This document shows positions 54-5,365 of a stretch of 28,964 nucleotides of DNA, piece by piece; the first letter of the stretch is position 1, and each line of letters opens with the position of its first letter. A program made the position numbers and the translations under genes. This DNA comes from a virus. The DNA lies in IMG/VR virus record IMGVR_UViG_3300027842_000018, positions 1 to 28,964 of that record. The stretch is one strand, 5' to 3'. Below the pieces are notes generated by a model, which searched no databases, was not told where the DNA came from, and saw nothing but the letters and a program-made list of their open reading frames with translations.

Positions 54-127
54 CGCGGATTAGCTCAAGGGCAGAGCAAGGCCCTCATAAAGCCAAGACG
101 AAGGTTCGACTCCTTCATTCGCGACCA
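54..127 (+). tRNA. tRNA-Met(CAT) type
   Basis: The acceptor CGCGGAT (54-60) pairs with ATTCGCG (117-123), followed by A and encoded CCA. The D stem is GCTC/GAGC, the T arm GAAGG/CCTTC around TTCGACT, and the anticodon CAT is at 86-88. The anticodon stem is weak, with A.A at its outer and C.A at its inner pair. It could be elongator Met or Ile2 (CAT read as AUA after lysidine modification); the sequence does not decide. Confidence 0.85.
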
Positions 128-128
128 A

Positions 129-177
129 CTCATCTAGAGCCCGAAGCCTAAAAGCTGGTAGGGTTATCGATGATGAG
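129..177 (+). other. structured spacer between tRNAs
   Basis: CTCATC (129-134) pairs with GATGAG (172-177), and inside it AGCCC (138-142) pairs with GGGTT (161-165), making a nested stem-loop about the size of a small tRNA. There is no TTCRA-type T loop, anticodon arm or CCA. It may be a processing structure or the remains of a tRNA; I do not call it a tRNA gene. Confidence 0.4.
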
Positions 178-182
178 ATAAT

Positions 183-258
183 GCGGGCATGATGTTTAAT
201 GGCAGCATGCGAGTCTTCCAAACTTGACGTACGGGTTCGAATCCCGTTGTCCGCTCCA
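183..258 (+). tRNA. tRNA-Gly(TCC)
   Basis: The acceptor GCGGGCA pairs with TGTCCGC, followed by T73 (usual for Gly) and encoded CCA. The anticodon stem CGAGT/ACTTG holds the loop CTTCCAA with anticodon TCC, and the T arm is ACGGG/CCCGT around TTCGAAT. Confidence 0.93.
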
Positions 259-356
259 CTCCCGAATGGGATGGTGAACGCCGACCGTGACCAACTAGGC
301 GTGACTTGATGACTACGTCATCTGAAACTGGAATGGATCAGAGAATCCTCTCCCAT
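259..356 (+). other. tRNA spacer with small hairpins, no gene seen
   Basis: This 98-base spacer holds three simple hairpins: TCCC/GGGA at 260-271, ACGCC (278-282) with GGCGT (298-302), and GATGAC (308-313) with GTCATC (317-322). No tRNA fold and no open reading frame with a ribosome binding site is visible. It may carry processing signals. Confidence 0.35.
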
Positions 357-430
357 GCGGATATGGTTTAATGGTAGAATCCCATCTTGCCAAGATAGGG
401 GTACGAGTTCGATTCTCGTTATCCGCTCCA
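357..430 (+). tRNA. tRNA-Gly(GCC)
   Basis: The acceptor GCGGATA pairs fully with TATCCGC, followed by T73 and encoded CCA. The anticodon loop TTGCCAA gives anticodon GCC on a stem with one C.A mismatch. The T arm is ACGAG/CTCGT around TTCGATT. With Gly(TCC) just upstream it covers much of the glycine box. Confidence 0.92.
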
Positions 431-496
431 TTCGGGGAAGTAGAGCAGCGCGGCAAACGCTGGAAGCAGTGGGTTCGATTCCCACACCGCGAAAGG
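431..496 (+). pseudogene. tRNA-like relic, Cys(GCA)-like, no D arm and no CCA
   Basis: The element starts directly after the CCA of tRNA-Gly(GCC). It keeps a perfect T arm (GTGGG/CCCAC around TTCGATT) and a perfect 5-bp anticodon stem (CAGCG/CGCTG). The loop CGGCAAA would give anticodon GCA but has G at position 33 instead of U. Only about eight bases remain where the D arm should be, the acceptor has a G.G mismatch, and AGG replaces CCA. A normal tRNA-Cys(GCA) exists at 2114-2190, which suggests a decayed copy; a minimal tRNA is less likely. Confidence 0.5.
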
Positions 497-559
497 TGAG
501 CCCTTGCCGGGGACACTCTAGTAGCAAGGTAAATGGCAGCTTCACTTCTCTGATACTAT
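497..559 (+). other. tRNA spacer with one stem-loop
   Basis: CCTTGC (502-507) pairs with GCAAGG (524-529) around a 16-base loop. No tRNA or gene is seen in the rest of the spacer. Confidence 0.35.
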
Positions 560-635
560 TGGCATGTGGTCCAACTGGTAGGACGCCTGACTGTTAATCA
601 GGACGGTGTGGGTTCGAATCCCACTGTGCCAGCCA
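560..635 (+). tRNA. tRNA-Asn(GTT)
   Basis: The acceptor TGGCATG pairs with TGTGCCA, followed by G73 (usual for Asn) and encoded CCA. The anticodon stem CCTGA/TCAGG holds the loop CTGTTAA with anticodon GTT. The T arm is GTGGG/CCCAC around TTCGAAT. The next tRNA follows after a two-base AT spacer. Confidence 0.94.
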
Positions 636-637
636 AT

Positions 638-712
638 GTCTGTGTAGCTCAACGGAAAGAGCACTCGTCTACGAAACGAATGATAGGGGTTCGATTCCCC
701 TCATGGACTCCA
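638..712 (+). tRNA. tRNA-Arg(ACG)
   Basis: The acceptor GTCTGTG pairs with CATGGAC, followed by T73 and encoded CCA. The D stem is GCTC/GAGC. The anticodon loop CTACGAA gives ACG, which would need A34-to-inosine editing to read CGC and CGA. The outer anticodon-stem pair is mismatched. The sequence resembles tRNA-Arg(TCG) at 1191-1265, suggesting duplication. Confidence 0.92.
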
Positions 713-789
713 GGAGCTATCGCGTAGAGGCCCATCGCGCCCGACTGTCTATCGGGACTTCGCCGGTTCGAATCCGGTTAGCTCCGCCA
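713..789 (+). tRNA. tRNA-Asp(GTC)
   Basis: The acceptor GGAGCTA pairs perfectly with TAGCTCC, followed by G73 (usual for Asp) and encoded CCA at 787-789. The anticodon stem CCCGA/TCGGG holds the loop CTGTCTA with anticodon GTC. The T arm is GCCGG/CCGGT around TTCGAAT. The ATG of an HNH gene begins at the very next base, 790. Confidence 0.94.
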
Positions 790-1128
790 ATGTTTGATAA
801 TAAGGCATATCAAAAGGATTGGTATCAGAAGAATAAGGTAGACCTTATTCGAAGAGCCAGTCAAAGAAAAGCTGAGTTTAGAAAACTTGTTCGCAAAATT
901 ATAGAGGATTTGAAGAGGTCTCCTTGTATTGATTGCGGATTGAACTTCCCTCCAGAGTGTATGGATTTCGACCACGTGAGAGGAAAGAAAAAGTTTGATG
1001 TAGGACAAGCTGCTCGATTGATCGGGAGATTAGAACCTCTTTTAGTAGAGATCGAAAAATGTGAGCTTGTCTGTGCAAACTGTCATAGAATTCGTACTAA
1101 GAAAAGAAACGGCCCTATAGCTCAATGA
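790..1128 (+). CDS. HNH endonuclease nested between two tRNAs (copy A)
   Basis: This 112-residue protein is probably a site-specific nuclease of the HNH (treble-clef metal finger) class, likely a homing endonuclease. It has CxxC at 46/49, the catalytic-type Asp-His at 61-62 in MDFDHVRGKK, and CANCH at 95-99, after a basic helical N-terminus. I choose the ATG at 790; an upstream in-frame ATG would place the whole of tRNA-Asp inside the protein. This ATG abuts the tRNA-Asp CCA and has no Shine-Dalgarno sequence. The last five codons and the stop (TGA, 1126-1128) lie inside tRNA-Arg(TCT), which starts at 1111. It is a clear paralog of the gene at 2736-3098. Confidence 0.88.
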   Translation: MFDNKAYQKDWYQKNKVDLIRRASQRKAEFRKLVRKIIEDLKRSPCIDCGLNFPPECMDFDHVRGKKKFDVGQAARLIGRLEPLLVEIEKCELVCANCHRIRTKKRNGPIAQ

Positions 1129-1186
1129 ACAGAGTACTCCGTTTCTACCGGAAGGGTTCGGGGTTTGAGTCCCCGTAGGGCCTCCA
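1111..1186 (+). tRNA. tRNA-Arg(TCT)
   Basis: The acceptor GGCCCTA pairs perfectly with TAGGGCC, followed by T73 and encoded CCA. The anticodon loop TTTCTAC gives anticodon TCT. The T arm CGGGG/CCCCG has the loop TTTGAGT, where position 56 is T instead of the near-invariant C. Its first 18 bases also encode the end of the HNH gene upstream. Confidence 0.9.
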
Positions 1187-1190
1187 TTTT

Positions 1191-1265
1191 GGACTCATAG
1201 CACAATGCACAGTGTGCTCGTCTTCGAAACGAGTGATCGGGGTTGGAGTCCCCGTGGGTCCGCCA
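1191..1265 (+). tRNA. tRNA-Arg(TCG)
   Basis: The acceptor GGACTCA pairs with TGGGTCC, followed by G73 and encoded CCA. The D stem is GCAC/GTGT. The anticodon stem CTCGT/ACGAG holds the loop CTTCGAA with anticodon TCG. The T arm CGGGG/CCCCG has the loop TTGGAGT, where position 56 is G instead of C. A TTTT spacer separates it from tRNA-Arg(TCT). Confidence 0.9.
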
Positions 1266-1268
1266 TAC

Positions 1269-1357
1269 ATTGGAATGAGATGGTTCTCCCAACCCTCTTA
1301 TAAAGGGTCGCACTAGATCGGTGCTTGGCAAGAGTTCGATTCTCTTTTCCAATACCA
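1269..1357 (+). tRNA. tRNA with anticodon TAT and a long (class II) variable arm
   Basis: The acceptor ATTGGAA pairs perfectly with TTCCAAT, followed by A73 and encoded CCA. The anticodon stem ACCCT/AGGGT is perfect and holds CTTATAA, so the anticodon is TAT, reading AUA (Ile). The T arm is AAGAG/CTCTT around TTCGATT. The 21-base variable region (1309-1329) forms its own GCAC/GTGC stem, as in Leu, Ser or Tyr tRNAs and unlike any standard bacterial tRNA-Ile. The D arm is short (GAGA/TCTC around TGGT). Which amino acid it carries is open: Ile by anticodon, possibly Leu by shape. Confidence 0.7.
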
Positions 1358-1388
1358 TTGTAAATCTAAGACCAAAGGTCATTGATTT

Positions 1389-1799
1389 ATGTCGAATACA
1401 AAGAAGAGTGCTACTCTCGGAATGCCGCATGGCACAGCCGCGAATCGTTTACGAAAACTTTTATTATTTGACGCGCTAAAGCGTCATGCGGAAAATCGCT
1501 GTTACCGATGTCATAAGTTGATTTATGCGGTTGAGGATTTGAGTATAGAGCATATTAAGCCTTGGGAAGGTGTTTCGGCTGATTTGTTTTGGGATTTGAG
1601 TAACGTCGCTTTTTCTCACTTGCGGTGTAATGTTCCGCATTCGTATCAAGGTGGAGTCCCGTTACGTAAAGTAGGCCCTGAGGGCACAGCTTGGTGTACG
1701 GGCTGTAAGAAATTTGAGTCTGTAGAAAAGTTTTGTAAGAGTGAGACGCGATGGAACGGTTTACAGAAATATTGTCGATATTCAAGACCAGATAGATAG
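1389..1799 (+). CDS. HNH endonuclease with C-terminal zinc finger
   Basis: This 136-residue nuclease has C38xxC41, then SIEHIKPW with Glu-His at 54-55, Asn72 in WDLSN and H77/C80 in SHLRCN, giving a complete HNH core. A second metal module follows (WCTGC at 102-106, then a Cys near 129). That tail looks truncated: the usual second cysteine pair ends as YCRYSRPDR. Unlike the other two array HNH genes it has its own leader, with AAAGG ten bases before the ATG, and does not overlap a tRNA, though it stops three bases before tRNA-Lys(CTT). It is from a different HNH subfamily and is probably an independent mobile insertion. Confidence 0.88.
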   Translation: MSNTKKSATLGMPHGTAANRLRKLLLFDALKRHAENRCYRCHKLIYAVEDLSIEHIKPWEGVSADLFWDLSNVAFSHLRCNVPHSYQGGVPLRKVGPEGTAWCTGCKKFESVEKFCKSETRWNGLQKYCRYSRPDR

Positions 1800-1802
1800 T
1801 TT

Positions 1803-1878
1803 CGCTCTATAGCTCAACGGCTAGAGTACCCGCCTCTTAAGCGGTGGGATGAAGGTTCGAATCCTTCTAGGGCGACCA
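1803..1878 (+). tRNA. tRNA-Lys(CTT)
   Basis: The acceptor CGCTCTA pairs with TAGGGCG (one G-T), followed by A73 and encoded CCA. The D stem is GCTC/GAGT. The anticodon loop CTCTTAA gives CTT, with the outer stem pair mismatched. The T arm is GAAGG/CCTTC around TTCGAAT. Confidence 0.93.
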
Positions 1879-1880
1879 AT

Positions 1881-1954
1881 GGGCTTATCATCTAGAGGAA
1901 GGATACATCGTTCTCAGCGATGTAACGTGAGTTCGAATCTCACTAAGCCTACCA
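1881..1954 (+). tRNA. tRNA-Glu(CTC)
   Basis: The acceptor GGGCTTA pairs with TAAGCCT (G-T at the end), followed by A73 and encoded CCA. The anticodon stem CATCG/CGATG holds the loop TTCTCAG with anticodon CTC. The T arm is GTGAG/CTCAC around TTCGAAT. AT spacers flank it on both sides. Confidence 0.93.
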
Positions 1955-1956
1955 AT

Positions 1957-2032
1957 GGCCTGATCTTCTAACGGATCAGGATACTTCCCTTTCAAGGAAG
2001 AGATGAGGGTTTGATTCCCTCTCGGGCCACCA
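1957..2032 (+). tRNA. tRNA-Glu(TTC)
   Basis: The acceptor GGCCTGA pairs with TCGGGCC, followed by A73 and encoded CCA. The anticodon stem CTTCC/GGAAG holds the loop CTTTCAA with anticodon TTC. The T arm GAGGG/CCCTC has the loop TTTGATT, where position 56 is T instead of C. Confidence 0.92.
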
Positions 2033-2034
2033 AC

Positions 2035-2110
2035 AGGCGACTAGCTCAATGGCTAGAGCACTAGTCCTACAAACTAGGGGTTAAGGGTTCGAGTCCCTTG
2101 TTGCCTACCA
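2035..2110 (+). tRNA. tRNA-Val(TAC), C33
   Basis: The acceptor AGGCGAC pairs with GTTGCCT, followed by A73 and encoded CCA. The D stem is GCTC/GAGC. The perfect anticodon stem CTAGT/ACTAG holds the loop CCTACAA, giving anticodon TAC with C instead of U at position 33. The T arm is AAGGG/CCCTT around TTCGAGT. Confidence 0.88.
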
Positions 2111-2113
2111 CAT

Positions 2114-2190
2114 GCCGGGAATGTCGAAGCGGTCGAGACGACGGTCTGCAAAATCGTTCTTAGTGAGTTCGAGTCTCACTCCTGGCTCCA
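2114..2190 (+). tRNA. tRNA-Cys(GCA)
   Basis: The acceptor GCCGGGA pairs with TCCTGGC, followed by T73 (the Cys identity base) and encoded CCA. The anticodon stem ACGGT/ATCGT holds the loop CTGCAAA with anticodon GCA. The T arm is GTGAG/CTCAC around TTCGAGT. Confidence 0.93.
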
Positions 2191-2201
2191 GTTGTTTAGA
2201 T

Positions 2202-2277
2202 AGGAAAGTAAGATAGCGGCTAATCGGCCTGTCTCCAAAACGGTGCAACGGGGGTTCGAGTCCCTCCTTTCCTGCCA
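2202..2277 (+). tRNA. tRNA-Trp(CCA)
   Basis: The acceptor AGGAAAG pairs perfectly with CTTTCCT, followed by G73 (usual for Trp) and encoded CCA. The anticodon loop CTCCAAA gives anticodon CCA, with the outer stem pair mismatched. The T arm is GGGGG/CCCTC around TTCGAGT. Confidence 0.91.
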
Positions 2278-2389
2278 GAAACCACAGCACGAGCGAGCTT
2301 CGCAGTAATAAGCTCGCCCGGAGATTGAGAAAGACCATGACCTCATCACCCAAATCGTCTAGTAGCAGCAAATGCTACGATAGTACTTT
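2278..2389 (+). other. structured tRNA spacer with two strong hairpins
   Basis: GCGAGCTT (2293-2300) pairs perfectly with AAGCTCGC (2310-2317). GTAGCA (2362-2367) pairs with TGCTAC (2373-2378) around GCAAA. No U tract follows either hairpin, no tRNA fold with a T loop is seen, and there is no open reading frame with a ribosome binding site. It may direct processing or stabilise the precursor. Confidence 0.4.
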
Positions 2390-2479
2390 GGAAGGGTGAC
2401 GGAATCTGGTAACGTAACGGTTTGCTAAACCGGAGTCGAGTTCACGCTCGTCGGGGTTCAAATCCCCGCCCTTCCGCCA
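2390..2479 (+). tRNA. tRNA-Ser(GCT)
   Basis: The acceptor GGAAGGG pairs perfectly with CCCTTCC, followed by G73 (usual for Ser) and encoded CCA. The anticodon loop TTGCTAA gives anticodon GCT. A long variable arm marks it as class II. The T arm is CGGGG/CCCCG around TTCAAAT. Confidence 0.93.
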
Positions 2480-2482
2480 AAC

Positions 2483-2574
2483 GGAGAGCAGCGCTGAATG
2501 GTCGGCCACGGTCCCGAAAACCGAGACACGTCACTTAGTGGCGTGACAGAGTTCGATTCTCTGGCTCTCCTCCA
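2483..2574 (+). tRNA. tRNA-Ser(CGA), C33
   Basis: The acceptor GGAGAGC pairs perfectly with GCTCTCC, followed by T73 and encoded CCA. The anticodon loop CCCGAAA gives anticodon CGA with C instead of U at position 33. A long variable arm with a CACGTCA/TGGCGTG stem marks class II. The T arm is CAGAG/CTCTG around TTCGATT. Confidence 0.89.
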
Positions 2575-2576
2575 AT

Positions 2577-2652
2577 GGGTCGCAGGTGTTAGCGGCAACA
2601 TACCCGCCTTTTAAGCGACGGGTTGAGAGTTCAAGTCTCTCGCGGCCCACCA
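2577..2652 (+). tRNA. tRNA-Lys(TTT)
   Basis: The acceptor GGGTCGC pairs with GCGGCCC, followed by A73 and encoded CCA. The anticodon loop CTTTTAA gives anticodon TTT; the two outer stem pairs are mismatched. The T arm is GAGAG/CTCTC around TTCAAGT. Confidence 0.91.
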
Positions 2653-2660
2653 AATTTTAT

Positions 2661-2735
2661 TGGCTGTTAGTGTAATTGGTAGCACGCCACTCTTTGAAAG
2701 TGGAATTCTTGGTTCGAGTCCAAGACGGCCAGCCA
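2661..2735 (+). tRNA. tRNA-Gln(TTG)
   Basis: The acceptor TGGCTGT pairs with ACGGCCA, followed by G73 (usual for Gln) and encoded CCA at 2733-2735. The anticodon stem CCACT/AGTGG holds the loop CTTTGAA with anticodon TTG. The ATG of an HNH gene begins at the very next base, 2736. Confidence 0.94.
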
Positions 2736-3098
2736 ATGCTATGTTCTACGTGTGGTGTAAAAGAACGTCGGGTAGGGCAACGAACGTGTGCCGGATGCCA
2801 TAACGAATATCAAAAAGCGTATTATAAGACGCATCCGCGCAGTACAGTTGAGTCCCGAAAGAGACGTAAAGAACAAATTCGTGCTTTGATTGTTGCGAAG
2901 AAATCTGTTCCTTGCAAAGATTGCGGGCACTCATTCCCATCATATGTGATGGACTTTGATCACGTTCGTGGTAAGAAAAGATTCGATATCTCGGTTGCAG
3001 CCAGTCACCTTTGGAAGGTTACAACTGTAGAAGCAGAAATTGCAAAATGTGATGTTGTTTGTGCAAACTGCCACAGAATTCGTACATTTGGCCGATAG
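2736..3098 (+). CDS. HNH endonuclease nested between two tRNA-Gln genes (copy B)
   Basis: This 120-residue HNH nuclease is a paralog of the gene at 790-1128. The two share PCxDCG, FP, MDFDHVRGKK, EIxKC and VCANCHRIRT. Metal-site cysteines are at 60/63 and 109/112, Asp-His at 75-76 and H113. It adds an N-terminal Cys4 finger (C3, C6, C18, C21). I choose the ATG at 2736; an upstream in-frame ATG would read through tRNA-Gln(TTG). The start abuts the tRNA CCA and has no clear Shine-Dalgarno sequence. The stop TAG (3096-3098) is formed by bases 8-10 of tRNA-Gln(CTG). The role is inferred to be tRNA-array homing. Confidence 0.88.
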   Translation: MLCSTCGVKERRVGQRTCAGCHNEYQKAYYKTHPRSTVESRKRRKEQIRALIVAKKSVPCKDCGHSFPSYVMDFDHVRGKKRFDISVAASHLWKVTTVEAEIAKCDVVCANCHRIRTFGR

Positions 3099-3163
3099 TG
3101 CAATCGGTAGCACGGCGCTCTCTGAAAGCGCAAGTCTTGGTTCGAATCCAAGTCAGCCAGCCA
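3089..3163 (+). tRNA. tRNA-Gln(CTG)
   Basis: The acceptor TGGCCGA pairs with TCAGCCA apart from one C.A mismatch, followed by G73 and encoded CCA. The anticodon stem GCGCT/AGCGC holds the loop CTCTGAA with anticodon CTG. It has the same length as tRNA-Gln(TTG) and matches it at 62 of 75 positions by hand alignment, with compensatory changes at pairs 7-66, 27-43 and 29-41. Its first ten bases also encode the end of the HNH gene. It is the last tRNA of the array. Confidence 0.93.
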
Positions 3164-5014: not shown

Positions 5015-5365
5015 ATGGCAAAAGGATTCTGCAGTAAGTGTGGGGAACCCTTATCTAAGGAAAATGCTACACCGACGACTTTGAAGCGTATGACGGGTTT
5101 TTGTAATCCGTGTTATAACGCCGGGAAGCGGAAGTACAGATACGGAGTGACAAAAGAAAGTTTTGAGAAGCAACTAGAACTCCAAAAAGGGCTGTGTGCT
5201 ATTTGTGGAAGTGCAATGGCCCGACCTGAACAGGATCACAACCATGTTACTGGGGAGGCACGTGAGTTGCTATGCCATAGTTGTAATTGGTTGTTAGGTT
5301 GCTGTTTTGAAAACAAAGACATTCTTCTAGCTGCCGTAAGGTATCTAGAGAAACATCTGCCGTGA
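5015..5365 (+). CDS. recombination endonuclease VII-like nuclease
   Basis: This 116-residue protein matches the endonuclease VII family (phage T4 gp49 type), which cuts branched DNA such as Holliday junctions during packaging, and which also includes free-standing mobile nucleases. C61xxC64 and C87xxC90 make the zinc site. D74-H75-N76-H77 corresponds to the catalytic Asp-His, and N91 follows the last Cys, as in the family. The C-terminal helix NKDILLAAVRYLEKH is typical. Two extra N-terminal CxxC pairs (6/9 and 30/33) form another finger. A good GGGAG ribosome binding site precedes it, and it is the first gene after a terminator, so a promoter or read-through is needed. Either junction resolvase or mobile nuclease is possible. 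Confidence 0.88.
   Translation: MAKGFCSKCGEPLSKENATPTTLKRMTGFCNPCYNAGKRKYRYGVTKESFEKQLELQKGLCAICGSAMARPEQDHNHVTGEARELLCHSCNWLLGCCFENKDILLAAVRYLEKHLP

Follow-up and report, generated by a model that had tools for sequence, protein, structure and literature searches.

Small HNH endonuclease genes seated against the 5' ends of tRNAs in phage arrays and cellular chromosomes

The tRNA array and its HNH genes

The window, the whole stretch of viral DNA analysed here, is a soil phage record of 28,964 bases whose first 3.2 kb hold 20 tRNA genes as called by ARAGORN. Three HNH genes lie within this array: HNH-1 and its paralogue HNH-2, which share one layout, and HNH-3, which belongs to a different HNH family. 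The features discussed below, all on the plus strand and with the tRNA and array coordinates taken from ARAGORN, are as follows.

54..3163, +, array of 20 tRNA genes holding the three HNH genes
713..789, +, tRNA-Asp(GTC), upstream neighbour of HNH-1, with an encoded CCA at 787-789
790..1128, +, HNH-1, an HNH endonuclease gene of 112 aa, its ATG (790-792) flush with the CCA
1111..1128, +, overlap of the HNH-1 3' end with tRNA-Arg(TCT); residues GPIAQ and the stop codon TGA are the first 18 bases of the tRNA
1111..1186, +, tRNA-Arg(TCT), downstream neighbour of HNH-1, 75/76 bases identical to the copy in the related phage L159
1389..1799, +, HNH-3, phrog_23251, unrelated to HNH-1 and HNH-2, at the Ile(TAT)/Lys(CTT) junction
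2661..2735, +, tRNA-Gln(TTG), upstream neighbour of HNH-2, CCA at 2733-2735
2736..3098, +, HNH-2, a 120 aa paralogue of HNH-1, its ATG flush with the CCA and its stop codon TAG inside the next tRNA
3089..3163, +, tRNA-Gln(CTG), downstream neighbour of HNH-2, 75/75 bases identical to the L159 copy

The original prediction placed the ATG of HNH-1 directly after the CCA of tRNA-Asp and its stop codon (1126-1128) inside tRNA-Arg(TCT), and on both points the sequence and ARAGORN agree, the stop codon being positions 16-18 of the tRNA. The start at 790 is backed by alignment with relatives, and HNH-2 likewise starts where its relatives do. HNH-2 is 46% identical to HNH-1 over 97 aa and repeats its layout between two tRNA-Gln genes; its TAG stop codon is positions 8-10 of tRNA-Gln(CTG), the conserved U8-A9-G10. 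Both genes lie outside any intron or intein, the flanking tRNAs being complete.

Profile searches match HNH-1 to two groups of HNH endonucleases, phrog_3106 (E 6e-28) and phrog_2255 (E 2e-23), and HNH-2 to the same two (E 1e-23 and E 3e-26, respectively); matches are to HNH families only, with no GIY-YIG domain in either protein. The Cys2/Cys2, DH, N and H residues of HNH-1 are intact and HNH-2 keeps the catalytic and zinc-binding residues; across 53 sequences C46, C49, D61, H62, C95, C98 and H99 are invariant and N97 is nearly so. The best structure model of HNH-1 has a pLDDT of 94.9, with low confidence solely at the extreme C-terminus, the part encoded by the tRNA. A fold search of the PDB with this model gave no significant match, the weak ones being to HNH nucleases, namely Cap5, the Gme HNH nickase and T4 endonuclease VII, and a structure profile search was also weak (4h9d, E 0.08). 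The GC3 of HNH-1 is 0.35, against about 0.55-0.59 in structural genes.

Several other features of the window were recorded. TRNA-like pieces at 1-50 and 431-495 have no ARAGORN call, one being cut by the start of the record and the other containing a T-arm-like stretch, ggttcgattcccac. Two non-tRNA spacers may be small RNAs: 256-305, which is 92% conserved with L159, and 2281-2389, which lies within an 83% block shared with L159. The tRNA called Ile(TAT) at 1269-1357 is 89 nt long and has a long variable arm, which is unusual for Ile; it is 98% identical in L159. An Endonuclease VII-like gene lies outside the array at 5015-5365 (PF02945, E 5e-16). ARAGORN found no tmRNA in the window; a tmRNA is present in the arrays of four phages that carry tRNA-linked HNH genes (L180, L181, L182 and L184, the last two being PegLeg and Phabba).

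Empty sites in a related phage

Phage L159 was found via the window's terminase (phrog_38), the two terminase proteins being 89% identical. Its tRNA genes stand in the same order as in the window and no HNH gene is present at any of the three sites. The original prediction read the HNH-1 locus as the insertion of an endonuclease gene at a tRNA-tRNA junction, and an HNH-less array with the same tRNA order supports insertion. The right edges of all three inserts lie 0-4 nt from the next tRNA. For HNH-1, window and L159 share sequence from an AAC 3 nt before tRNA-Arg onwards, AC directly preceding the tRNA; for HNH-2, the shared sequence starts within a base of tRNA-Gln(CTG); and for HNH-3, the GTTT leader that tRNA-Lys has at the empty site is kept, its G serving as the G of the stop codon TAG. 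The left edges of the HNH-1 and HNH-2 inserts are not fixable because the upstream tRNAs are not orthologous between the two phages: the tRNA-Asp upstream of HNH-1 and its positional counterpart in L159 are only 59-62% identical, and the tRNA-Gln(TTG) upstream of HNH-2 is 83% identical to tRNA-Gln(CTG) of L159, against 74% between the corresponding upstream tRNAs.

It had further been proposed that a CCA-AT-G junction provided the start codon. At the matching places L159 instead has CCA-AC-G (Asp/Arg: the CCA of tRNA-Asp, AC, then GGCCCTATAG) and CCA-TTACAATAT-TGG (Gln/Gln), so there is no sign that the junction gave the ATG; as the upstream tRNAs differ, these junctions are not proof of the ancestral junction of the window's lineage, which may have been different. 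CCA-AT-G junctions are found in the arrays of both phages, and CCAATG occurs six times in the window's array, so that finding an ATG behind a CCA there is no improbable event in its own right. When exact copies of the tRNAs downstream of HNH-1 and HNH-2 were sought in viral contigs as a guide to more empty sites, only L159 was returned. A 100% identity of the downstream tRNAs between window and L159 was also considered as a mark of homing and dropped, because 6 of the 20 tRNAs are at least 96% identical between the two phages. By terminase, the nearest named phage to the window is Tunturiibacter phage Tunturi_3 (24% identity), which hints at an Acidobacteriota host.

Placement at the tRNA edge among relatives

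Relatives were collected from viral contigs, annotated phages and GTDB genomes, redundancy was removed and ARAGORN was run on each locus, a downstream tRNA being counted if it lay within 250 nt. In these samples of GTDB and of phages, the HNH gene stops inside the downstream tRNA in 62 of 113 non-redundant relatives and at most 12 nt before it in 30 more, and in the first set of relatives the commonest stop positions within the tRNA are 8-10 (TAG) and 13-15 (TAA or TAG). For comparison with the background, tRNAs having 300 nt or more of upstream space were scored for the stop codon of an ORF 80 codons or longer: it lies within 52/105 HNH-adjacent tRNAs vs 24/240 others (p = 4e-15). The other side of the gene behaves differently, the spacer after the upstream tRNA running from 0 to about 195 nt. 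What stays constant is thus the 3' side, with a stop codon that comes from the tRNA, and the start side varies. A constant start spacer, on which the original prediction had staked itself by naming variable spacers as evidence to the contrary, therefore fails.

Within phage arrays, tRNA isotype carries no signal with respect to the HNH phylogeny (p about 0.3), and the neighbours of HNH relatives show a nominal excess of Arg and Gln only. A general phage habit of starting genes with an ATG directly after CCA is unsupported; in a partial sample of viral contigs, an open frame of at least 60 codons beginning with an ATG directly after a CCA-bearing tRNA was found in 0/6 cases. Genes other than HNH genes that also stop at tRNA positions 8-10 are PegLeg gp107 (L182), Auspice gp105 (L183) and Phabba gp183 (L184).

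Cellular chromosomes

Among 81 non-redundant cellular relatives, 45 end at the 5' edge of a tRNA, 29 of them inside it. Their hosts include Saccharibacteria and other Patescibacteria, Chloroflexi, Acidobacteria, Actinobacteria, Planctomycetes and an archaeon (Nitrosotalea). Sixteen cellular loci hold a single tRNA, the one adjoining the HNH gene, and an upstream tRNA is lacking in most cellular copies. Of the 45 tRNA-edge cases, 34 belong to five tRNAs. Tracked through taxonomic groups—family or order, since a genus-level search around one Saccharibacteria genome returned only that genome—the placement is at tRNA-Pro(TGG) for 8/8 copies in one family (103 genomes), at tRNA-Arg(TCG) for 7/7 copies at 50% identity or more in one order (295 genomes) and at tRNA-Phe(GAA) for the 4/4 closest copies in a family of 73 genomes, and the HNH gene is absent from most genomes of all three groups. 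At the level of sequence, these copies display recurrent placement at the tRNA edge, a specificity of one tRNA per clade and sporadic occurrence. Empty cellular sites were checked for the tRNA-Pro placement: three bacterial genomes of the same family as the occupied locus (L490) have the upstream gene, 32 nt and then tRNA-Pro, with no HNH gene in between. In L490 the N-terminal zinc ribbon and the HNH domain are in different frames, which suggests a frameshifted or split copy.

In Saccharimonadales the link to tRNAs takes a second, opposite form: more distant HNH relatives (L562, L564-L567, L569 and L573) end next to an antisense tRNA-Cys(GCA), 1-10 nt from its boundary; in the same loci a tRNA-Leu(TAA) lies some 570-1330 nt away.

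The start side and the message

To describe the start side we scored a strong -10 box as a match of at least 5/6 to TATAAT and measured its offset to the start codon. Such a box ends 6-7 nt before the start in 15 of the 51 relatives with an upstream tRNA, any other offset occurring at most twice, and in 12/41 of an independent set with an upstream tRNA; in relatives away from tRNAs the counts are 5/72 and 5/33. The difference between tRNA-linked genes and those away from tRNAs has p = 0.001 in the first set and p = 0.12 in the second, and because the latter is non-significant we treat the -10 box as a trait of the family, not of tRNA arrays. An offset of 6-7 nt is the spacing of a leaderless transcript, suggesting that many relatives may have leaderless mRNAs. 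A Shine-Dalgarno sequence is present in about a fifth of the relatives with an upstream tRNA. A further group, which includes HNH-1 and HNH-2, starts 0-6 nt after the tRNA with neither a Shine-Dalgarno sequence nor a -10 box. Certain bacterial enzymes cleave tRNA precursors just behind the CCA, and in this group tRNA 3' processing could create the 5' end of the mRNA.

A bolder reading, which we consider doubtful, is that tRNA maturation defines the HNH message at its two ends and acts as a built-in off-switch that keeps a mobile nuclease low. Processing of the 3' end of the upstream tRNA would expose a 5' AUG and so a leaderless mRNA, cleavage by RNase P at the downstream tRNA would remove the stop codon, and each RNA molecule could give rise to the nuclease or to the second tRNA, but not to both. 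If start and stop were truly made by tRNA processing, a mobile gene would be expressed and held in check in a way that is new.

Replacement of tRNAs beside gained or lost HNH genes

Empty alleles also occur in pairs of cultured phages: Myrna/Phabba, ET08/Sebata and PegLeg/Auspice. ET08/Sebata and PegLeg/Auspice are otherwise about 96-99% identical, and in these two pairs, with a tRNA counted as replaced at below 85% identity, replacement affects 7/8 tRNAs beside an HNH gene present in one partner only vs 5/38 other tRNAs (p = 1e-4). Adding Phabba/Myrna and window/L159 gives 13/20 vs 25/72 over the four pairs (p = 0.015); both p values are approximate, because neighbouring tRNAs are not fully independent. 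Taken alone, window vs L159 gives a signal that is not significant and only suggestive, since many tRNAs differ between the two arrays. The downstream tRNA is unchanged in some cases (tRNA-Met of Phabba, tRNA-Gln(CTG) of the window) and replaced in others (tRNA-Met of PegLeg), so the pair data do not fix a cut site.

Interpretation and alternative explanations

Judged from the sequences, HNH-1 and HNH-2 probably belong to a free-standing, homing-type family of small zinc-bound HNH nucleases whose preferred seat is directly 5' of tRNAs. The nuclease would cut at or near a tRNA in a genome lacking the HNH gene, and repair templated by an HNH-carrying genome would bring the gene in, often together with adjacent tRNA genes. 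The reading frame would then run into the tRNA and take its stop codon from the conserved bases U8-A9-G10 or A14-R15, and expression would begin at a leaderless-type start, set either by a -10 box at an offset of 6-7 nt or by a start codon that adjoins the upstream tRNA without a gap; for HNH-1 and HNH-2, which have the latter, tRNA 3' processing might make the mRNA 5' end. Insertion, stop codons inside tRNAs and replaced tRNAs beside gained or lost copies are visible in the comparisons above, as are two marks of free-standing homing endonucleases, HEG-minus alleles (L159 and the phage and bacterial pairs) and co-conversion of flanks (the near-identical phages); what we infer is the cleavage of DNA and its position, homing as such and translation without a leader.

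The layout might have a plainer origin in compaction, small genes in dense phage arrays simply abutting or overlapping their neighbours, in which case it would say nothing about mobility. Near the 5' end of a tRNA, two of the three frames do contain a stop codon; the non-HNH genes of PegLeg, Auspice and Phabba noted above likewise end at tRNA position 10, Cursive gp117 begins immediately behind a tRNA and CCAATG is common in the window's array. We nevertheless find this quite improbable as a full account, since the stop lies inside 52/105 HNH-adjacent tRNAs against a background of 24/240, the placement recurs at isolated tRNAs in multi-megabase chromosomes, repeatedly at the same tRNA, and most related cellular genomes have empty sites; the single-tRNA cases in particular speak against it. 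The same cellular copies bear on the explanation put forward in the original prediction, insertion at an AT spacer between tRNAs with the CCA-AT-G junction supplying the start codon, because most of them have no upstream tRNA at all. The presence of CCA-AT-G junctions in both arrays and the start of both HNH-1 and HNH-2 at an ATG directly after CCA fit it, but the empty junctions of L159 read CCA-AC-G and CCA-TTACAATAT-TGG, relatives start anywhere from 0 to 195 nt after the upstream tRNA, and in PegLeg and Auspice the start codon is a GTG that follows a tRNA without an encoded CCA. As a general rule this explanation is refuted, and we hold it to be highly improbable.

The genes might also be resident and useful to the phage, for example by changing the tRNA repertoire or amplifying it against tRNA-cutting defences, instead of homing selfishly. 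Amplification of tRNAs driven by SegB overcomes tRNA-targeting defences (PMC13096335), in mycobacterial tRNA arrays the coding genes found most frequently are those for endonucleases, often of the HNH kind (PMC5966550), and flanking tRNAs change with the presence of HNH genes. Sporadic single-tRNA sites in chromosomes, away from any array, are hard to explain by a benefit to phages, and as a replacement for homing we think this unlikely; it is not exclusive, being compatible with homing followed by occasional co-option.

A homing-type family seated 5' of tRNAs would give a simple landing rule for a widespread group of HNH genes, the tRNA 5' edge in phages, bacteria and archaea, and this rule helps to spot overlooked copies such as the unannotated ones in ET08 (L165, 2501-2824) and Myrna (L039, 4745-5038). 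Since the tRNAs beside a gained or lost nuclease tend to change, it would also offer a possible cause of the patchy tRNA repertoires of phages.

Comparison with known systems

The layout of HNH-1 had been thought to have no described counterpart. It does recur, in exact form, in annotated phages: Auspice gp113 has a GTG directly after tRNA-Asp (which has no encoded CCA) and a stop 15 bases into tRNA-Glu, and PegLeg gp117 is identical to it in DNA with a later start called. The abutting start is supported by the N-terminus MAYKDP, which matches Myrna gp144, MAYKD being shared with L014 too. In the part of the literature that was searched, we found no paper that discusses this layout, nor one on tRNA-edge placement, tRNA-borne stops, leaderless starts or single-tRNA chromosomal sites. 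The presence of HNH genes in tRNA arrays of mycobacteria and phages has itself been noted and linked to tRNA diversity (PMC5966550, PMC6409571, PMC6582537), and for cluster M phages they are tied to the diversity of the tRNA repertoire (Pope et al., 2014, as cited in PMC5966550). The HNH genes of mycobacteriophage arrays (PegLeg gp96, gp102 and gp117, Auspice gp113, Myrna gp144 and Sebata gp172) are homologous or similar to those described here and, like them, located in the array.

Group I intron homing endonucleases in tRNA genes interrupt the tRNA, usually in the anticodon loop, whereas the HNH genes insert between complete tRNAs. The intronless homing endonucleases of T4, the Mob and Seg proteins, are alike in being free-standing ORFs with empty alleles and co-conversion of flanks (PMC2988022); their cut sites are reported to be hundreds to thousands of bases away from where the gene is inserted (PMC2988022). 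Of these proteins SegB comes closest. In T4 the segB gene sits at the tRNA-Arg/tRNA-Ile junction, and the tRNA region is given as its target (PMC2988022); the SegB of T6 makes its cuts within tRNA genes, causing these genes to be amplified (PMC13096335). By analogy, the best reading is that the HNH family may work like T4 SegB with a different enzyme family: both are free-standing nuclease genes in phage tRNA clusters, sporadic in occurrence and associated with transfer of tRNA genes (PMC2988022, PMC13096335, PMC6409571), SegB being a GIY-YIG enzyme and HNH-1 and HNH-2 HNH enzymes. SegB is reported to be under the control of an RNA hairpin at the ribosome-binding site of its gene (PMC2988022), whereas the HNH genes of the window have no ribosome-binding site. 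Unlike SegB, the HNH family takes its stop codons from within tRNAs and is also seated at chromosomal tRNAs of bacteria and archaea.
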